Source of the DNA: an uncultured Flavobacteriales bacterium
GTDB lineage: Bacteria > Bacteroidota > Bacteroidia > Flavobacteriales_D > Sanyastnellaceae
Assembly (NCBI GenBank): GCA_905479395.1
Contig: CAJQMI010000023.1
Location: forward strand, 1 to 46,124
Direction of reading: 5' to 3'
Length of the DNA stretch: 46,124 bases
Below the pieces are notes generated by a model. It saw only the letters and a list, made by a program, of their open reading frames with translations. It was not told where the DNA came from and ran no database searches. Positions 3,207 through 13,354 of the stretch are shown one piece after another. Numbering within the stretch: the first letter of the stretch is position 1; each line of letters begins with the position of its first letter. The translations under genes and the position numbers were made by a program.

Positions 3207-4268
3207 TCAATATGGAGCTTTGTTGCTCCAGCTGATGTGTTTTCTAACCGAGCCATCGCTGAAGTGATAGAGCAGGACTTTGTTGGGCGTGTATTCACAG
3301 ATGCGTCCCATGAGGTCCGAAATTTGGAGCAATTCAGCTATTTCGGTTGAGCTTGGTGCCGATGAAGTGGTCAGAGGTGTGACCATGAGCTGCATGGCAA
3401 CGGGACGGTGATCACTGACGTTGTAGTCGTATTCCGACCAACCACCGTCCATGTGAGCGGCAATGTCGAGGCAGGCAACTTGCGTGCTAGAAGCGCTGAA
3501 ATCAGTAAAGAGTTCATCGGAGATGAGTAAATGATCCAGGTGCGATGGCCATCCCGGGAAAGACCAGCCCGAGCTGGGGCCTTGCGCAATGGGCATGTCT
3601 GCAAAGAGATAGTCCTCCGGCAGTTCCAGGAAAGGCTCAAACACATTGTTGGCTGGCGCCTCTTGGATGAGGTCGTTCAGATCGCCGAGGACGATGACGC
3701 GATCGTCTGACAACTCTTCTTGGATGTACTCATTGATGAGGACGCAAGCCTCTCTGCGTCTCATTTCTTCATCACCATCGTCTGACCAATCGATGCTCCC
3801 GTTTCCACAGCATTTGAAGTGGTTGTTGATGGCATAGAATGCTTCGCCATTGAATGAGAAATGAAGAATCAATGGGGAACGGGGGAGGGGACTCCAAAAC
3901 GGTGACTCTGTGTAGATTTCAAAAGCTTCAATTACTTCGATTTGACTGGAGTTGTAAACGTAAACGAGGCCACCAAACCAACCCTCCATGAGGATGTAGT
4001 CGTAGTCGTCCAGGTCTTCGATCATGCTTTTGAATGCGGTTGTGTCGTCAATTTCTTGGATGCCCCAGAGATCAATCTCTAAGTTTTGGACGATGGCTTT
4101 GACCCGATCAATCGTTGCTGTTCCATTTTTGGGAAACCATTCAATGTTCCACGTCGCAACATCGAGTGTGGCAGGCGTCCCGAATTCCAAATCCTCCAGC
4201 GTTTGAGCTTTGGTGACGGTTGGACTAAGCAGGGTCAACAGGAGGAGAAAAGGCATTAAGTTCCGCAT
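3207..4268 (-). CDS. Secreted endonuclease/exonuclease/phosphatase-family protein with an atypical T9SS-like tail
   Basis: 353 residues: signal peptide (1-22, ending VTKAQT) and an EEP domain at ~35-297. The family's catalytic and metal residues are in place: N41 in WNIEWF, E72 in QEI, H150 in NNHFKCCG, D196/N198 in GDLND, D245/H246 in SHLDHLLIS and D286/H287 in SDHRPV. It therefore should hydrolyse phosphodiesters of nucleic acids or a related phosphoester substrate outside the cytoplasm. After a Ser/Thr-rich spacer (~298-308) a C-terminal module (310-345) reads ELLQISDLMGR ... LLYHFSDGSVRK. This resembles a short T9SS type A signal variant, also present in the protein at 17100-18092. The start is the ATG at 4268, immediately behind a TAnnTTTG box. 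The gene is convergent with the DoxX-like gene. Confidence 0.85.
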   Translation of the reverse strand: MRNLMPFLLLLTLLSPTVTKAQTLEDLEFGTPATLDVATWNIEWFPKNGTATIDRVKAIVQNLEIDLWGIQEIDDTTAFKSMIEDLDDYDYILMEGWFGGLVYVYNSSQIEVIEAFEIYTESPFWSPLPRSPLILHFSFNGEAFYAINNHFKCCGNGSIDWSDDGDEEMRRREACVLINEYIQEELSDDRVIVLGDLNDLIQEAPANNVFEPFLELPEDYLFADMPIAQGPSSGWSFPGWPSHLDHLLISDELFTDFSASSTQVACLDIAAHMDGGWSEYDYNVSDHRPVAMQLMVTPLTTSSAPSSTEIAELLQISDLMGRICEYTPNKVLLYHFSDGSVRKHISWSNKAPY

Positions 4269-4694
4269 GCCTCAAAAGTAACTTGAAACGAATGCCCAGA
4301 AGACAAATTGAAGGCCTCTGTTCAGGGATCCAATATAGATTGCAGGTCACTTGTGACATCAGATCTAAAACGTGGTCTTTTATTCGCTCTTGCGGTCAGG
4401 CTCCAAATTGAAAAGCATCAAATGATTTCAAGCAGTGGCTCTCCTGATGGCTCTCCTGATGGCTCCTCGTCCGCTTCATTGCGGGCTATTTCGCCTTTGT
4501 TTGCATCTGTTTGCATCTGTTTCTAACGAGTCGAATGTGAGCGTGGCATGGTCAAAGCACGCATCGAAACAACTTTATCCATCAATGTGTGTTGGAGCAG
4601 GCAATGATTGCTTGAGCAGGTCCGATTTCTGCAAACAAAATCTGATCAAGCACGTCATGAAGGCATTGGCGCTGCGCTTTCGTTCAGGATTAAA
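4269..4694. other. Intergenic region with short tandem repeats, no gene seen
   Basis: Beyond the promoter at its left edge, this 426-bp stretch shows two small tandem duplications: GGCTCTCCTGAT twice at 4437-4460 and TTTGCATCTG twice at 4500-4519. It also has two interrupted palindromes: GTCAC-TT-GTGAC at 4346-4357 and GCAATGATTGC at 4601-4611. Open frames crossing it have low-complexity, non-protein-like translations. It looks like decayed or non-coding sequence. Confidence 0.5.
4273..4307 (-). promoter_or_regulatory. Promoter-like elements abutting the nuclease start codon
   Basis: Minus strand: TTTG (complement of 4304-4307), 23 bp, TACTTTTG (complement of 4273-4280), then 4 nt to the ATG. 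The -7 box matches the Bacteroidota consensus exactly; the spacer is long. The message would be leaderless or nearly so. Confidence 0.35.
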
Positions 4695-4952
4695 CTATGA
4701 CCCGATTTGCTCCTTAGCACCGGAGTTGATTTCATCGATTGCTTTGGCCAGTTTCCAATCTAGTTCGGTTACCACGTGCCCCGCGTCATGGGTCGTAAGC
4801 TCTAGGCGAACACGGTTGTATTCGTTGAAGATCGCAGGGTGATGGTTGAACTTCTCCGCTAGAATAGCCACTTCATTGAGGAATGAAAAGGCTTCCACAA
4901 ACGAATCAAAGTGCAAATCACAAATGAGTTTGTCGTCGGTTTCATTCCACAT
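4695..4952 (-). CDS. Pterin-4a-carbinolamine dehydratase
   Basis: 85 residues covering the entire PCD/DCoH fold. It dehydrates 4a-hydroxytetrahydrobiopterin, regenerating the pterin cofactor of aromatic amino acid hydroxylases. The signature is intact: AEKFNHHPAIFNEYNRV contains the catalytic histidine pair, followed by LTTHDAGHVVTELDWKLAKA with the third histidine and the conserved Asp. The start MWNETDDKL is typical of the family; an ATG 21 bp upstream (4973) would add MFRSLAI and is possible. The stop of the OM-barrel gene (4998) lies only 24-45 bp upstream, so it may be read with the sigma-factor operon, although no functional link is obvious. No phenylalanine hydroxylase gene is in the window. 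Confidence 0.9.
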   Translation of the reverse strand: MWNETDDKLICDLHFDSFVEAFSFLNEVAILAEKFNHHPAIFNEYNRVRLELTTHDAGHVVTELDWKLAKAIDEINSGAKEQIGS

Positions 4953-4997
4953 AATGGCCAAGCTACGGAACAATTGACATGCTTCGAATGGCTTGAA

Positions 4998-6605
4998 TCA
5001 CTCTGATTTGATGCGGGCTGCAAAAAATCGTGTGATTCCGATTTGAACTTGTCCATTGACCATACGGCCGCGCCATTCAGGAACACCATTCTCTTGGTTT
5101 TCACCACTGTATCCATTGTTGAACCGTTGTAGCCCTGCGCTTAAACTGAAGTCTGCACGCCATTCAGGCGCAATGTAAAAGCCCGTGTAGAGTCTTCCTG
5201 TAGGCATCCAGTTGAGCCGTGTTTGAGCCAGATTGGAATCAGAGTAATCGGATACCAGTCCGTTTGTGTCAATGGTTCTGCCTTCAGCATAGCTTCTCAA
5301 TTGGATCAATGCTCCCAATCCAATTCCTAATTGCCAACGTCCAAAATACTGCTGCTTTTGCCACTCGATAGGAAGTGCAAAAGCTCGAAACCGATTGTAG
5401 TGCGATATATCGCGCGTCTGCCGTTCAATGCCTTCGACGTCACCCAAGACGACCGCCATTGTGTCTCCCGTGATTTCGTTGATTTGAACAGACAGGACAC
5501 CTTCTGTTGTGATGGCATGTTCACTGTGTTCAGTATAATCCAAATGCTGAATGAATTCATTCCAAGCGATGCCCACAGCGAATGATTGCGACCATTTTTG
5601 GAATTCCAACATCAGACCGCATCCAGCACTGAAGTTTGCTCTAAAAAACTCGTTGAATTCGGGTTCTCGGCCATCGCCGTAGGCGAATTGACTGACGGTT
5701 GGCCCGCCGTAAGCGCGCAATGCGAATGGCATTCCGACTTCGGATTCTTGACTGTTGTTGTCTGGTTGAATTGCTAACCTTTGAATTGGTTTAATCGGTG
5801 CTTCCCGCACCAAAGGCAGAAAGAGCATGGGAGGCAATTTTCTTGCTGACTCCGAGTTGGTTTCTGGGCCGGTTGTTTGGGCATTTTCATGAGCGTATTC
5901 TACCGCGAGAGGTGCACTGGGATATGAAGGTGTTTTTGCGGAAACTTCCTCAACTGCACTGGTGGTGGGCTCGATGGAAGGCGCTGCCAAGGCGAGGTCC
6001 AACGCTGTTTCGCTTGTGGCTTCTTTCGCCAAAGAAGGGTTGATTTCAATTGAATTTTTGTTTGTGGAAGGAGTTGAAGTGTCGTCCTCATTGGTTGGAG
6101 GAGCTGGGGCATTGGACGCAAGGTTGATGCCTTTTTTGGCGATGTTTGTTGCCCTGGTTTCGAAAGGCGTGTTGGTTTCTGATGATGCCTCCGGCTCAGT
6201 CGATGCTGCGGTTGGCAAAGCGGAAGCCACAAGTGCAGAGGTTGATGGCTCAGATTCAACGGGAGACTGGAGCAATGGGTTTGCTTTTTGCGTGATTTGG
6301 TCAGATGGCAGAACTGATTCTGTCGAGATTGCAGTGACTTGCTGCGTTTCAATGGTTGCTTTCGTGTTCTGAGGTGCCTCGCTTGAGTAAAAGATGGCAG
6401 CTGCTGTAACTCCAAACACAGCAACCACGGCAATGGCCCAGCTGCCCCAATTGGTGAAAAGCTTAGAACCCGTAGCGGATGAGTTGGAAGTAGCCGGAGC
6501 TATTTGACTTTCTATGGAATTCCACAGAGTTTCCTCCTGACCCGGAGTTCCTTTTTCCTGGTATGAGCTGAGGCGATTTTTTAAAATTTCTTCCCAATTT
6601 TTCAT
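4998..6605 (-). CDS. Inner-membrane-anchored protein with long linker and C-terminal outer-membrane-type beta-barrel; probable partner of the ECF sigma factor
   Basis: 535 residues with three parts. Residues 1-52 are a soluble, charged N-terminus (MKNWEEILKNRLSSYQEKGT) resembling short anti-sigma cytoplasmic tails. One transmembrane helix follows at ~54-73 (NWGSWAIAVVAVFGVTAAAI). Residues ~75-290 are a Ser/Thr/Glu/Ala/Pro-rich, probably disordered linker. Residues ~294-535 form a beta-strand-rich region with alternating hydrophobic residues, many Tyr/Trp/Phe, and a last strand QVQIGITRFF, as in PorT/OmpW-like outer-membrane barrels. There is no cleavable signal peptide. The ATG overlaps the sigma-factor stop by 4 bp (ATGA), so translation is coupled. 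The expected role is to hold or release the sigma factor in response to events at the outer membrane; this is inferred from context and layout, not from a recognised anti-sigma domain. Confidence 0.7.
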   Translation of the reverse strand: MKNWEEILKNRLSSYQEKGTPGQEETLWNSIESQIAPATSNSSATGSKLFTNWGSWAIAVVAVFGVTAAAIFYSSEAPQNTKATIETQQVTAISTESVLPSDQITQKANPLLQSPVESEPSTSALVASALPTAASTEPEASSETNTPFETRATNIAKKGINLASNAPAPPTNEDDTSTPSTNKNSIEINPSLAKEATSETALDLALAAPSIEPTTSAVEEVSAKTPSYPSAPLAVEYAHENAQTTGPETNSESARKLPPMLFLPLVREAPIKPIQRLAIQPDNNSQESEVGMPFALRAYGGPTVSQFAYGDGREPEFNEFFRANFSAGCGLMLEFQKWSQSFAVGIAWNEFIQHLDYTEHSEHAITTEGVLSVQINEITGDTMAVVLGDVEGIERQTRDISHYNRFRAFALPIEWQKQQYFGRWQLGIGLGALIQLRSYAEGRTIDTNGLVSDYSDSNLAQTRLNWMPTGRLYTGFYIAPEWRADFSLSAGLQRFNNGYSGENQENGVPEWRGRMVNGQVQIGITRFFAARIKSE

Positions 6606-7899: not shown

Positions 7900-10068
7900 T
7901 TACTGTTGGATGACTCGCAAAGATCGAGTCGCTCCCTCCGAAGTTTTGAGGTTCAATGAATACAATCCTTTCGCGATGCCAAAAAACTCAATGCTTTGTG
8001 CACCTGAACCTGCGTAGGATTTGACGAGCTTGCCGTCAGTACTGATGAGTTGGCCCTGCCATTCGATGTGAGAGGCGATGCCGTTCAGCTGCACCATGCC
8101 ATTGGCAGGATTGGGGTAGAGGCTGGTTCCCTCGAAAACATTGTCGCGCACTGATGAGGCCGATGCTTCGCAAATTTCAATGCCATACGAGCTAGGCGGA
8201 ACCTCATTTGTACTCGTCTCCTCCACCAAAAGAGCGCCTGCTTCATCAAAGACGACGTAGCCGGCGTATTGCGGTTCAAAAAAGGGTGATTGAACAACAA
8301 AATCCAATGGCCCTGGAGCCACCTGTGCCATAACGGATACTTGATAGAAAGGACTGTACGTTTGATTGAAAGGAATGTAGGTAACGAGTTCAGCGCCCGA
8401 ATAAATAGACAAGCTTCCACCGAACCAGCCTTCTTGGGCATCATCGTTGAACTGGATTTCGATGGGTCCGCATGCTTCGGCGCTTTCGGAACAGGGGCGT
8501 AGGCCGTAGATGCTCCGAGCTCCGCCTGAAGAGGAGTAGATCACATAGCCGTTGTCATCTTCAATTTCATAAGCATCTGAACCACCTCCTCCAGAATACA
8601 CAACATTGATTGTGCTGTTCGCATTTGCTGGAAAGCTAAATGAATCGACTCCAAAATTGTTTGGTGACTCAGAAGCAATCAAAACACCATCGGCGTAGAT
8701 GTCCAATGAACCGCCGTTCCACGGATCCTCACCCCAAGGGTTTGAGGCTGAAATCATGCTTGCCGTCCAGGTCCCGCAGGTTCCTTCAATCACAGGAAAA
8801 TCGTAGGGAATTAGTTCTCCCATCGAGTGCACAACACCATTGTAAGCGAGGAGGTTAGCTTGTTCGACGAGCGCTCCATCGACAGCAATCCCATCAGAGT
8901 CTACAGAAACATTGAGGAAGTCGTTGCTGTAGGTCTGAAGCTGCATACCGTTGAATAAATCGGAGCTCTCGTACACAGCTTCTACGATGTGCCTGTTGAC
9001 AATTTCGTCCATTTCTTGGGAAGCGAGCAATTCATCCACATCAGCAAATCCATTCAATTCAGCAAAAGCAAACAACGCCGCGTCGGTTGGAGCGAATACA
9101 GTGAAAGGCCCAGGTGCGTCTTCATTGTCATTCAAGATCGGCTGGCCACGCAGGTCATCGTCCAATCCTTCATTGAATATTGCTTGCTCAAATAGCGTGT
9201 GATTCTCGCTTTGCATAATGACATCGAGCACTGTTGCTCCAGGATAACCGGCTGGGGCAAGGACTTTGTCGATGATATGAGCCACACCGTTTGATGCGGT
9301 GAAATCCGTGTAGATAATGTTTGCGTCATCCACCATGGCGCCTGCAGCATTGATGCTAATTGTGATGGATTGACCTTCTGTTGTCTCGATGGTCATTCCA
9401 TCGGTGAGGTCTTCTGCCATATATATTCCCGGGACCACATGGTATTTCAATGCATTGGGCATATCGTAAAAGCTCAGCATGTCAAATTGACTCAAATTCA
9501 TCAATTCCATCAGTGCGTCTGTGGCACTTTCTGTTGGAACAAATACAGTGTATTCGTCCAAGAGATTCAAATCCACACCATAACTGGTGCTGCCTTGGTA
9601 AAGACTTGGACTTAGGTAGGTATTCATGGCGTAAGCCCCTTCCCAACTCTCAACATAAGCAAGGGAGGCGTCGGCATAAGTCATATCACTCATCAAATCA
9701 GAAAGGGTGTAGGCATCAACGCTGATGGTCGCATTCATTCCCAAATCTGGTTGCACGCCGACGGAAGATGTGTATTGGTAATTTCCGGGGGTATCGAACG
9801 TGATGACACCCATGCAGACTCCATCGATGTTGCCTTCCAACGATTCTAGGAAGAACGACTCGGGATTGTCTTCGTTTGTGCCATCCACATTGTGGTTGCC
9901 TTCTGCATTGATGAATGCCACGGATTCCCCAACGGTTATTGGCAATGCGGATGGAGTGAAGACAAAATCAGTGAGATAAACAGTGTGGTCTGCCTCACAT
10001 TGTGCTTGGATTTCGGCTTGTGTAAATCCAAAAATCAAAGCTGCGAACAAGAGAATGTGTTTGATCAT
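7900..10068 (-). CDS. T9SS-exported fasciclin (FAS1) protein with a degenerate plastocyanin-like head
   Basis: 722 residues from MIKHILLFAALIFGFTQAEI (signal peptide); an in-frame ATG 57 bp upstream would hide the signal and is rejected. Domains: 24-118 a cupredoxin-like beta sandwich (TVGESVAFINAEGNHN ... GNYQYTSSVGVQPDLGM); ~120-270 first FAS1 domain (YTVFVPTESATDAL, ALKYHVVPG, GVAHIIDKVL); ~278-421 second FAS1 domain (FTVFAPTDAALFAF, NRHIVEAV, GVVHSMGEL); ~430-640 two beta-rich domains each opening with CG and containing a WNGGSLDIY / WFGGSLSIY motif; 649-722 a T9SS type A sorting domain (SLYPNPANGM ... GLYSLNLKTS). FAS1 domains mediate adhesion. Of the four type-1 copper ligands only His59 and Met111 remain; Cys and the second His are absent. 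It is a monocistronic minus-strand gene. Confidence 0.88.
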   Translation of the reverse strand: MIKHILLFAALIFGFTQAEIQAQCEADHTVYLTDFVFTPSALPITVGESVAFINAEGNHNVDGTNEDNPESFFLESLEGNIDGVCMGVITFDTPGNYQYTSSVGVQPDLGMNATISVDAYTLSDLMSDMTYADASLAYVESWEGAYAMNTYLSPSLYQGSTSYGVDLNLLDEYTVFVPTESATDALMELMNLSQFDMLSFYDMPNALKYHVVPGIYMAEDLTDGMTIETTEGQSITISINAAGAMVDDANIIYTDFTASNGVAHIIDKVLAPAGYPGATVLDVIMQSENHTLFEQAIFNEGLDDDLRGQPILNDNEDAPGPFTVFAPTDAALFAFAELNGFADVDELLASQEMDEIVNRHIVEAVYESSDLFNGMQLQTYSNDFLNVSVDSDGIAVDGALVEQANLLAYNGVVHSMGELIPYDFPVIEGTCGTWTASMISASNPWGEDPWNGGSLDIYADGVLIASESPNNFGVDSFSFPANANSTINVVYSGGGGSDAYEIEDDNGYVIYSSSGGARSIYGLRPCSESAEACGPIEIQFNDDAQEGWFGGSLSIYSGAELVTYIPFNQTYSPFYQVSVMAQVAPGPLDFVVQSPFFEPQYAGYVVFDEAGALLVEETSTNEVPPSSYGIEICEASASSVRDNVFEGTSLYPNPANGMVQLNGIASHIEWQGQLISTDGKLVKSYAGSGAQSIEFFGIAKGLYSLNLKTSEGATRSLRVIQQ

Positions 10069-10251
10069 GTGTGCTGTGGTTATTTTTGGTGGTACTTCTA
10101 TTGTCTGGCAATTGTGACACTTCAATGCTTGAAAATTCGTTTTTTCTTCAGAGCGGCATTTTTCCGATCATTAAGCTACCGAATCAACCGCCAATAAAAC
10201 CGAACCTTGGAAGTTTTGTTCTTGTTTCACTTGGCAGGTTGAGCCGATTCA

Positions 10252-11351: not shown

Positions 11352-12206
11352 ATGCGATTATGTAAGTCTCTCATTGCCATATTTCTCGCGCTGATTTCTA
11401 ACTGTATATCGGCGCAGGACACGTTGTGGATCGTTCGTGGAGAATGGACGCACATTCCGGATTCTGTTCAAGCAATTCGATTCAATTCCAGTGCAGATTG
11501 GTCAGGCATTAACGCCACCCTTTCTCGAGCGTCTGACGAATCGACTTCGCTCGTGGTGGTCAACACGGACAGCTTGAGCCATACGTGGAAACTGCATGTG
11601 GATGAAGAGGAGGAGTGGGCGATTGAAGCTTTTGATACGTTGACTTTTGAAATCCCCGCACTTCCCATTGGGACATACCTCTTCGGTCTTACGGATGAGA
11701 TTGGACGTGTCTTGGGCGCGAGCGGTCAATTGCAAGTAGGGTTAGGAGTTGAATTCCCTCTCTTTCATTGGAATTTGGGAGATTGGTCCGTGCAACGAAT
11801 GGCGTCAGCAAACATGGGAGTTCCTGTGGCATGGGAAGAGCCATATGTACCCGAGCAATTCACCATCAATGAGCGCACTTATCCTGCGACTGTCGATGAT
11901 CCTGAAGCCCTTGTGGCCATGAACCTTGGTGATACGTGTTGGATTTCTATTGCGAATCACGGGTTCATGGATCACGTGTTTCACTTTCATGGATTTCACG
12001 TGATTATGGTGAGCAGCACGCATCATCCTGAGCGCGTTGGATGGTCCAAAGACACCGTCCCTATTCGTATGGGAGAGGGGCTTGTTGTTCAACTCGTTGC
12101 CAACCAAATGGGAATGTACCCTGTTCACAATCACAATTTGATTGCTGTAACAAATGCAGGCTTTTATCCAGGAGGAATGATCACGCAAATCCATGTGATG
12201 CCATGA
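11352..12206 (+). CDS. Multicopper-oxidase-like protein, subunit with type 2/3 copper histidines only
   Basis: 284 residues: signal peptide 1-21, a first cupredoxin-like domain (~25-130) without copper ligands, and a second (~165-284) with multicopper oxidase C-terminal motifs. The motif H208-x2-H211-x-H213 (DHVFHFHG) matches HPxHLHG, and H259-N-H261 (PVHNHN) matches the HCH motif. The type-1 copper Cys is replaced by Asn260 and the following type-1 His by Ala265. So four histidines for the trinuclear cluster remain, but no electron-accepting type-1 site. The gene ends directly after the cupredoxin fold: no T9SS tail. Its TGA overlaps the ATG of the next gene, whose ligand set is complementary; the two probably form one oxidase. 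The substrate is unknown. Confidence 0.8.
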   Translation: MRLCKSLIAIFLALISNCISAQDTLWIVRGEWTHIPDSVQAIRFNSSADWSGINATLSRASDESTSLVVVNTDSLSHTWKLHVDEEEEWAIEAFDTLTFEIPALPIGTYLFGLTDEIGRVLGASGQLQVGLGVEFPLFHWNLGDWSVQRMASANMGVPVAWEEPYVPEQFTINERTYPATVDDPEALVAMNLGDTCWISIANHGFMDHVFHFHGFHVIMVSSTHHPERVGWSKDTVPIRMGEGLVVQLVANQMGMYPVHNHNLIAVTNAGFYPGGMITQIHVMP

Positions 12207-13354
12207 ATCAGTTTCGAGTTTGCTTGATGATATGTGCCATTGGCGGAGCTTCACTTTGCTCCGGGCAAATGGCGCCACCTCAGTTGTTTTCGGGCATGGA
12301 GGGATATACTTTTTTGCCTGACGGCACAGCCATACCCATTTGGGGCTACGGTTGGGTTGCTGACGGTTACATTACCCTGCCAGGTCCTCTGCTAGAATAC
12401 ACCCAAGACGAGTTCGTGCAGCTCAACTTCACGAATCCTAGCCCTGAAAGCCATACAATCCATTTGCATGGTCTGGACGTAGACCAAGCCAATGATGGAG
12501 TGCCGGCAACAAGTTTTTTTGTTGTCACAGGGCAGGAAGCCACGTATGAGTTTACCGCGGATTATCCCGGCACGTTTCTTTATCACTGCCACGTGACGAC
12601 GACCTTGCATTTGACGATGGGAATGTACGGGATGATTTTGGTGAATCGTCCTGACATGACGTTGTTTGAGGGAGGGCCATCGTACGCCAAAAATGCCCCA
12701 ATCTTGTTCAGTGATTTGGCCATTGAGACCAATGTAGATGCCGTGCAGTCTTTTCCTTTCCATGACATTCGCCCAGACGTTTTTATGGTCAATGGTGTTT
12801 CTGGCAATCAGTTGGAACAACCAGACCATATCATTGACTTTGAGCCTGGTGAGCCGATTGCGCTGCGCCTGGGATCCATGGCTTACAGTCTGATGCGATT
12901 GGACTTTCCATCGGAATTGAACGCGACCTGCTACATGAGCGACGGAAGGCCACTTCCAGAGCCGTTTGATGTGGAGGAAATGGACATTTTTCCAGGTGAG
13001 CGATTCACTGTTATGATTGAACCCGTTGAAGGATGGGACGGATACATCGGATGTGAATTCTGGAACATTCCGGACCAGGAACTTGATGGAGAACAATCGA
13101 TTCATGTGAGAGATAAAAGCCTATCGGTGGGTGAATGGAGTGAATTGATCGCTCCTTTGGGATACCCAAATCCCACCCGTTCAAGCATCTCATGGAATGG
13201 GCCTGCCTCGGTGTCCGTGTTTGATGTCTCTGGTGTTCTTGTATTTCAAGGTCCTCTTGACCAAGGTCAATTGCACGTCAATGGATGGTCCACTGGAATG
13301 TACACGGCCATTTTCCCTGACGGAAATCGCTCTCGGTTTTCAGTGATTCACTGA
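12203..13354 (+). CDS. Multicopper-oxidase-like protein with type-1 site and T9SS type A tail, second subunit
   Basis: 383 residues from the ATG that overlaps the upstream stop (ATGA); a longer frame extends further upstream inside the previous gene but lacks a signal peptide. Signal peptide 1-22. Domain 1 (~25-150) holds H84-x2-H87-x-H89 (HTIHLHG) and H128-C129-H130 with H136 and M141 (YHCHVTTTLHLTMGM): a complete type-1 copper site plus four trinuclear-cluster histidines. Domain 2 (~160-305) keeps the cupredoxin outline (PDVFMVNGVSG, FEPGEPIALRLGS) but has lost the ligands. Residues 318-383 are a T9SS type A signal (GYPNPTRSSIS ... GMYTAIFPDGNRSRFSV). It thus complements the upstream subunit, which has the ligands in its second domain. 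Laccase- or nitrite-reductase-like copper chemistry outside the cell is expected. Confidence 0.85.
   Translation: MNQFRVCLMICAIGGASLCSGQMAPPQLFSGMEGYTFLPDGTAIPIWGYGWVADGYITLPGPLLEYTQDEFVQLNFTNPSPESHTIHLHGLDVDQANDGVPATSFFVVTGQEATYEFTADYPGTFLYHCHVTTTLHLTMGMYGMILVNRPDMTLFEGGPSYAKNAPILFSDLAIETNVDAVQSFPFHDIRPDVFMVNGVSGNQLEQPDHIIDFEPGEPIALRLGSMAYSLMRLDFPSELNATCYMSDGRPLPEPFDVEEMDIFPGERFTVMIEPVEGWDGYIGCEFWNIPDQELDGEQSIHVRDKSLSVGEWSELIAPLGYPNPTRSSISWNGPASVSVFDVSGVLVFQGPLDQGQLHVNGWSTGMYTAIFPDGNRSRFSVIH

Follow-up and report, generated by a model that had tools for sequence, protein, structure and literature searches.

Two overlapping Bacteroidota genes with complementary copper ligands may encode the halves of one multicopper oxidase

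Can two neighbouring genes, each encoding a cupredoxin protein with only part of the copper ligands of a laccase, together encode a single oxidase? This question is raised by two overlapping genes in the window, a stretch of 46,124 nucleotides from an uncultured Flavobacteriales bacterium. An earlier note on this DNA had proposed that their products, here P1 and P2, form a heteromeric oxidase in which each subunit contributes one functional and one structural domain. On rechecking both open reading frames, its coordinates and ligand numbers proved correct, and the ATGA overlap of stop and start that it described was borne out (Table 1). The host draft genome (2.29 Mb), of which the window is one contig, contains a single copy of each gene. 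Pfam recognised one Cu-oxidase_2 domain in P1 (residues 165-266), and in P2 Cu-oxidase_3, a borderline Cu-oxidase domain and the type IX secretion system (T9SS) sorting domain.

Table 1. Features of the P1-P2 locus, in window coordinates. Where two E-values are given for a ligand-less domain, the first is for its match to the corresponding domain of the partner protein and the second for its match to the corresponding domain of single-chain relatives.
Feature	Position	Strand	Length	Description or support
Gene 1 (P1)	11352-12206	+	284 aa	Signal peptide, then two cupredoxin domains; four trinuclear-cluster His in domain 2
P1 Sec-type signal peptide, about residues 1-21	11352-11414	+		Sequence, hydropathy
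P1 domain 1, residues about 22-150, ligand-less	11415-11801	+		hhalign E 4e-9 and 1e-5
P1 domain 2, residues about 160-284, half of trinuclear cluster	11829-12203	+		hhalign E 7e-22
P1 HVFHFH: His208 (non-ligand), His211 and His213 (trinuclear)	11973-11990	+		H211, H213 102/102
P1 HNH: His259 and His261 (trinuclear cluster)	12126-12134	+		102/102
ATGA overlap, gene 1 stop and gene 2 start	12203-12206	+		Sequence
Gene 2 (P2)	12203-13354	+	383 aa	Signal peptide, two cupredoxin domains, T9SS sorting domain
P2 domain 1, residues about 24-155, copper-binding	12272-12667	+		Cu-oxidase_3; hhalign E 8e-29
P2 HTIHLH: His84 (type 1), His87 and His89 (trinuclear)	12452-12469	+		102/102
P2 HCHx5Hx4M: His128, His130 (trinuclear); Cys129, His136, Met141 (type 1)	12584-12625	+		101/101
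P2 domain 2, residues about 156-308, ligand-less	12668-13126	+		hhalign E 7e-13 and 1e-9
P2 type IX secretion C-terminal sorting domain	13163-13351	+		TIGR04183 26.1 bits vs cut-off 23

Every residue named in the earlier note was found: in P1 His208, His211 and His213, then His259 and His261 with Asn260 and Ala265, and in P2 His84, His87 and His89 followed by the HCHx5Hx4M motif that spans H128-C129-H130, His136 and Met141. Among 102 non-redundant pairs of relatives, with identity down to about 22-25%, the complementary ligands were kept throughout: H211, H213, H259 and H261 of P1 were invariant (102/102), as were H84, H87 and H89 of P2 (102/102) and its H128, C129, H130, H136 and M141 (101/101). 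Each protein has one domain devoid of a copper site, and the full ligand set is present only in the two together. We also scanned all alignment positions for a His, Cys or Met that at least 90% of the sequences keep. The scan returned exactly the eight copper ligands in P2 domain 1, and in P1 domain 2 it picked out H208, H216 and M276 in addition to the four cluster histidines; P1 domain 1 had H77 alone (97%), and P2 domain 2 had no His, Cys or Met position at this level. Neither His77 (11580-11582), 97% conserved among P1 relatives, nor His216 (11997-11999), 100% conserved, is an expected ligand. The HxxHxH motif described in P1 is present, but its first histidine, His208, does not belong to the trinuclear ligands and is kept in 96 of 102 relatives.

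The earlier note further held that the type-1 Cys and His of P1 had been replaced, which is misleading. Across the 102 pairs, residue 260 is one of Asp, Asn, Ala and Glu, and residue 265 one of Ala, Thr, Ser, Gly and Asn; neither is ever Cys or His. Four single-chain relatives (L169-L172; 400-434 aa) carry all of the ligands, with HTIHWHG and HCHx5Hx4M in domain 1 and HxLHLHG and HDHD...YPGG in domain 2. Their type-C-like domain 2 (HDHD) has no type-1 site, so P1 domain 2 did not lose one; the actual loss in P1 is that of the entire domain 1 ligand set. In domain-by-domain hhalign comparisons, P2 domain 1 matched domain 1 of the single-chain proteins (E = 8e-29) and P1 domain 2 matched their domain 2 (E = 7e-22), while the two ligand-less domains matched their counterparts in the partner protein (P1 domain 1 with P2 domain 1, E = 4e-9; P2 domain 2 with P1 domain 2, E = 7e-13). 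P2 domain 2 had no match to domain 1 of any protein compared. The ligand positions of P1 domain 1 and P2 domain 2 are filled by other residues, with the exception of P1 His77, which aligns with the type-1 His.

As judged from profiles and predicted folds, P1 and P2 are collinear relatives of the type-C two-domain multicopper oxidases. The only PDB matches of the P1 profile at E<1e-10 were 2zwn and 3g5w, and the best two of the P2 profile were 3g5w and 2zwn. Each of these structures is a two-domain oxidase whose type-1 motif lies in domain 1, and the cluster histidines of P1 align with the HxH pairs of their domain 2. AlphaFold2 models of the single proteins (pLDDT 93 for P1, 90 for P2) superpose on 2zwn and 3g5w over both domains. 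The low-confidence stretches of the models (P1 261-280; P2 91-100 and 131-140) include conserved copper-site loops, which would fit the absence of a partner, although this is soft evidence. Both proteins have the two collinear cupredoxin domains of type C. P2 has the type-C domain 1, with a type-1 site and four trinuclear histidines, which P1 does not, and lacks the other four in its own domain 2; P1 has the domain 2 histidines without the domain 1 set. Going by these ligands, neither protein would be functionally type-C alone, and the pair supplies the complete set.

A heteromer could also be real and yet not reduce O2 by four electrons; its interface might, for example, form a type-2 site like that of nitrite reductases. 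Two-domain copper nitrite reductases have the same fold, and they too have an inter-subunit site. In nitrite reductases, however, no His is known to follow the Cys, whereas P2 has HCH, and the eight invariant histidines suit a trinuclear site and not a three-His type-2 site. The copper nitrite reductase model TIGR02376 scored 62 against a cut-off of 296, and the HCH and further invariant histidines also depart from the motif of that enzyme. We regard this reading as very unlikely. Scores were likewise far from the CueO, CopA and laccase equivalogs of NCBIfam, the best being 67 bits against 479 for copper_res_A.

Genomic co-occurrence, which had been set as a test beforehand, was near-perfect. 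In 399 genomes of the order there were 106 matches to P1 and 107 to P2. With G636 set aside, where one single-chain protein matches both profiles, both genes were found in 104 of the 399, as adjacent same-strand P1-P2 genes in 102 and with each gene at a contig end in two; nearly all genomes with either gene had the same order and adjacency. In two others (G759, G698) one gene is visible and the contig stops there. Elsewhere P2 is intact and P1 disrupted by a frame change (G555), or remnants of both genes are left (G518, G078). The sole P1 without P2 (L179) has an in-frame TGA and lies in a genome, G060, that also has the pair at a contig end. In one draft genome only, G055, does an intact P2 stand without P1, between the same neighbours as in its relatives (L177), which may be a true loss or an assembly error. 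The pairing recurs in other families of the class: a broader profile recovered it in at least seven more, with all motifs kept, and a narrower profile run on a 395-genome sample of the phylum returned the window's own genome and only two single-chain proteins. The related records that bear names were Flavobacteriales and Crocinitomicaceae metagenome assemblies. Tree distances of P1 and P2 were correlated (0.83), which we do not take as evidence of contact because linked genes share their history; both the co-occurrence and this correlation are partly expected for any operon.

These data bear on whether P1 and P2 act separately, P2 as a type-1-only blue-copper carrier and P1 as a copper-binding or structural partner with no trinuclear cluster. 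P2 does have a full type-1 set by itself, and G055 keeps it without P1. A type-1 carrier would nevertheless have no need of His87, His89, His128 and His130, which are invariant in more than 100 proteins; the four histidines of P1 are just as invariant and fall on the domain 2 HxH pairs of 2zwn and 3g5w; and the genes are almost never found apart. We therefore consider separate action very unlikely.

The gap between the genes was −4 (ATGA) in 36 of 42 loci of a first set and 40 of 66 of a second, and −1, 1 and 2 were the most frequent of the other values. The overlap is out of frame, as it might be had a single-chain oxidase been split by a frameshift or by an artefact of assembly, and in G894 one open frame does span both genes. 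Yet more than 100 genomes show separate open reading frames, each with its own signal peptide, and the short overlap, and some of these genomes are assembled in one or two contigs. The domain order from P1 to P2 is D1-D2-D1-D2, unlike that of one split two-domain protein, and the joined frame of G894 comes from a run of eight G, with the normal P1 end intact in the adjacent frame. Sequence comparison thus contradicts a split or artefactual gene, which we hold to be extremely improbable. A true gene fusion in G894 (L204) was ruled out on the same ground; the 692-aa P1-P2 frame that the G run yields could reflect sequencing error, slippage or phase variation. At another locus (L110), a four-letter step at the P1 stop puts P1 and P2 in one frame.

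We looked for neighbours common to all pair loci as a clue to the substrate and found none, the flanks varying between genera. Defence-system models gave no match. The reverse strand of the window encodes, at 7900-10125, a T9SS protein that has two fasciclin domains and an N-terminus weakly resembling plastocyanin, and a relative of this protein adjoins the P1-P2 pair in six loci, the window included. At locus L203 (G1091), P1 forms the C-terminal end of a secreted protein of 1093 aa (3300-6578, reverse strand) whose long N-terminal region has no Pfam match; P2 is next to it, 684 aa long, with an insert ahead of the sorting domain. These extra regions could hint at the electron donor or at the location of the enzyme.

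We infer that P1 and P2 are very probably subunits of one obligate heteromeric multicopper oxidase that arose by tandem duplication and reciprocal ligand loss. Intact halves lying side by side in more than 100 Bacteroidota genomes strongly suggest an oxidase that works only once assembled. A type-C two-domain oxidase gene would have been duplicated in tandem. In the P1 copy, domain 1 would then have been stripped of its copper ligands while domain 2 went on supplying half of the trinuclear cluster; in the P2 copy, domain 2 would have been stripped of its ligands while domain 1 kept the type-1 site together with the remaining half. That duplication preceded loss is suggested by the pattern of domains and ligands rather than by a dated tree.

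In two-domain oxidases, the trinuclear cluster is coordinated by residues from two protomers of a homotrimer, and in type C the type-1 copper is located in the N-terminal domain (PMC13151041; PMC3192119). A heteromer is the likelier because both P1 and P2 are collinear with this class, which builds its trinuclear site between two subunits. Convergence of the P1 and P2 ligands in one site is argued from this homology: P2 domain 1 would pack on P1 domain 2, as domain 1 of a subunit does on domain 2 of the next in known two-domain oxidases, and the eight histidines at the contact would form one trinuclear cluster. Electrons would pass from the type-1 copper of P2 through Cys129 to His128 and His130 and on to the shared cluster, where O2 would be reduced to water. 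By the same analogy, a site could form only where P2 domain 1 meets P1 domain 2, and from their ligand content homomers of P1 or of P2 would be unable to complete one. Two kinds of subunit cannot alternate strictly around a ring of three, and the quaternary structure therefore has to be other than the homotrimer already known. Candidates are a heterodimer, a mixed trimer that has one site only, and a larger assembly with an even number of subunits.

The ATGA overlap would couple synthesis of the two subunits. P2 has the C-terminal sorting domain of type-A T9SS cargo, whose PNP motif is present in 93 of 97 relatives, and P1 is without one; judged by C-terminal length, none of 102 P1 relatives has a sorting domain after the fold. 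Since P2 has this signal and P1 lacks it in every relative, P1 is probably carried out in complex with P2, and the enzyme would act at or beyond the cell surface. On balance, we think it more likely than not that a widespread Bacteroidota clade acquired a two-gene trinuclear cluster by duplication and reciprocal loss and exports the enzyme by way of one subunit whose T9SS signal also carries the signal-less partner.

If this is true, here is a multicopper oxidase whose O2-reducing site cannot be built by any one polypeptide, and reciprocal loss has in nature turned a homomeric enzyme into an obligate heteromer. It would also bear on the origin of the dead cupredoxin domains of three- and six-domain oxidases. 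The half-sites could be expressed apart and then mixed, making assembly of a trinuclear cluster observable in vitro, and type IX secretion of a partner without its own signal becomes a testable question. Annotation that seeks complete copper motifs within one protein would miss such an enzyme. The open-access literature that we searched held no report of a two-gene oxidase of this kind, which does not prove that there is none.

Among known systems, the type-C oxidases 2zwn (from a metagenome) and 3g5w (from Nitrosomonas europaea) are the closest in plan. They have two cupredoxin domains, as do P1 and P2; their domain 1 has the type-1 site and half of the cluster (HTIHxHG, HCHx5H...M), as in P2, and their domain 2 the other half (HxHG, HxH), as in P1. 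The known type-C enzymes are, however, encoded by one gene, with one kind of subunit that carries all ligands, whereas P1 and P2 come from two genes and each has one dead domain. The single-chain proteins L169-L172 resemble P2 in domain 1 and P1 in domain 2, but they hold all ligands in one chain, have a Tat-like N-terminus and lack a T9SS domain. CueO, ascorbate oxidase and ceruloplasmin also have ligand-less cupredoxin domains beside one trinuclear site; there the dead domains are within one chain, and in P1 and P2 they are in two separate proteins. A 2011 survey had suggested that Bacteroidota are without two-domain oxidases (PMC3192119); L169-L172 show that complete single-chain ones do occur in the phylum. 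The fungal enzymes POXA3 and NLAC, of the laccase superfamily, are heterodimeric too, with a catalytic subunit that is itself a laccase and a small partner that adds stability and activity (PMC10741624). P1 and P2 differ from these in that the catalytic subunit of POXA3 and NLAC is a laccase in its own right.
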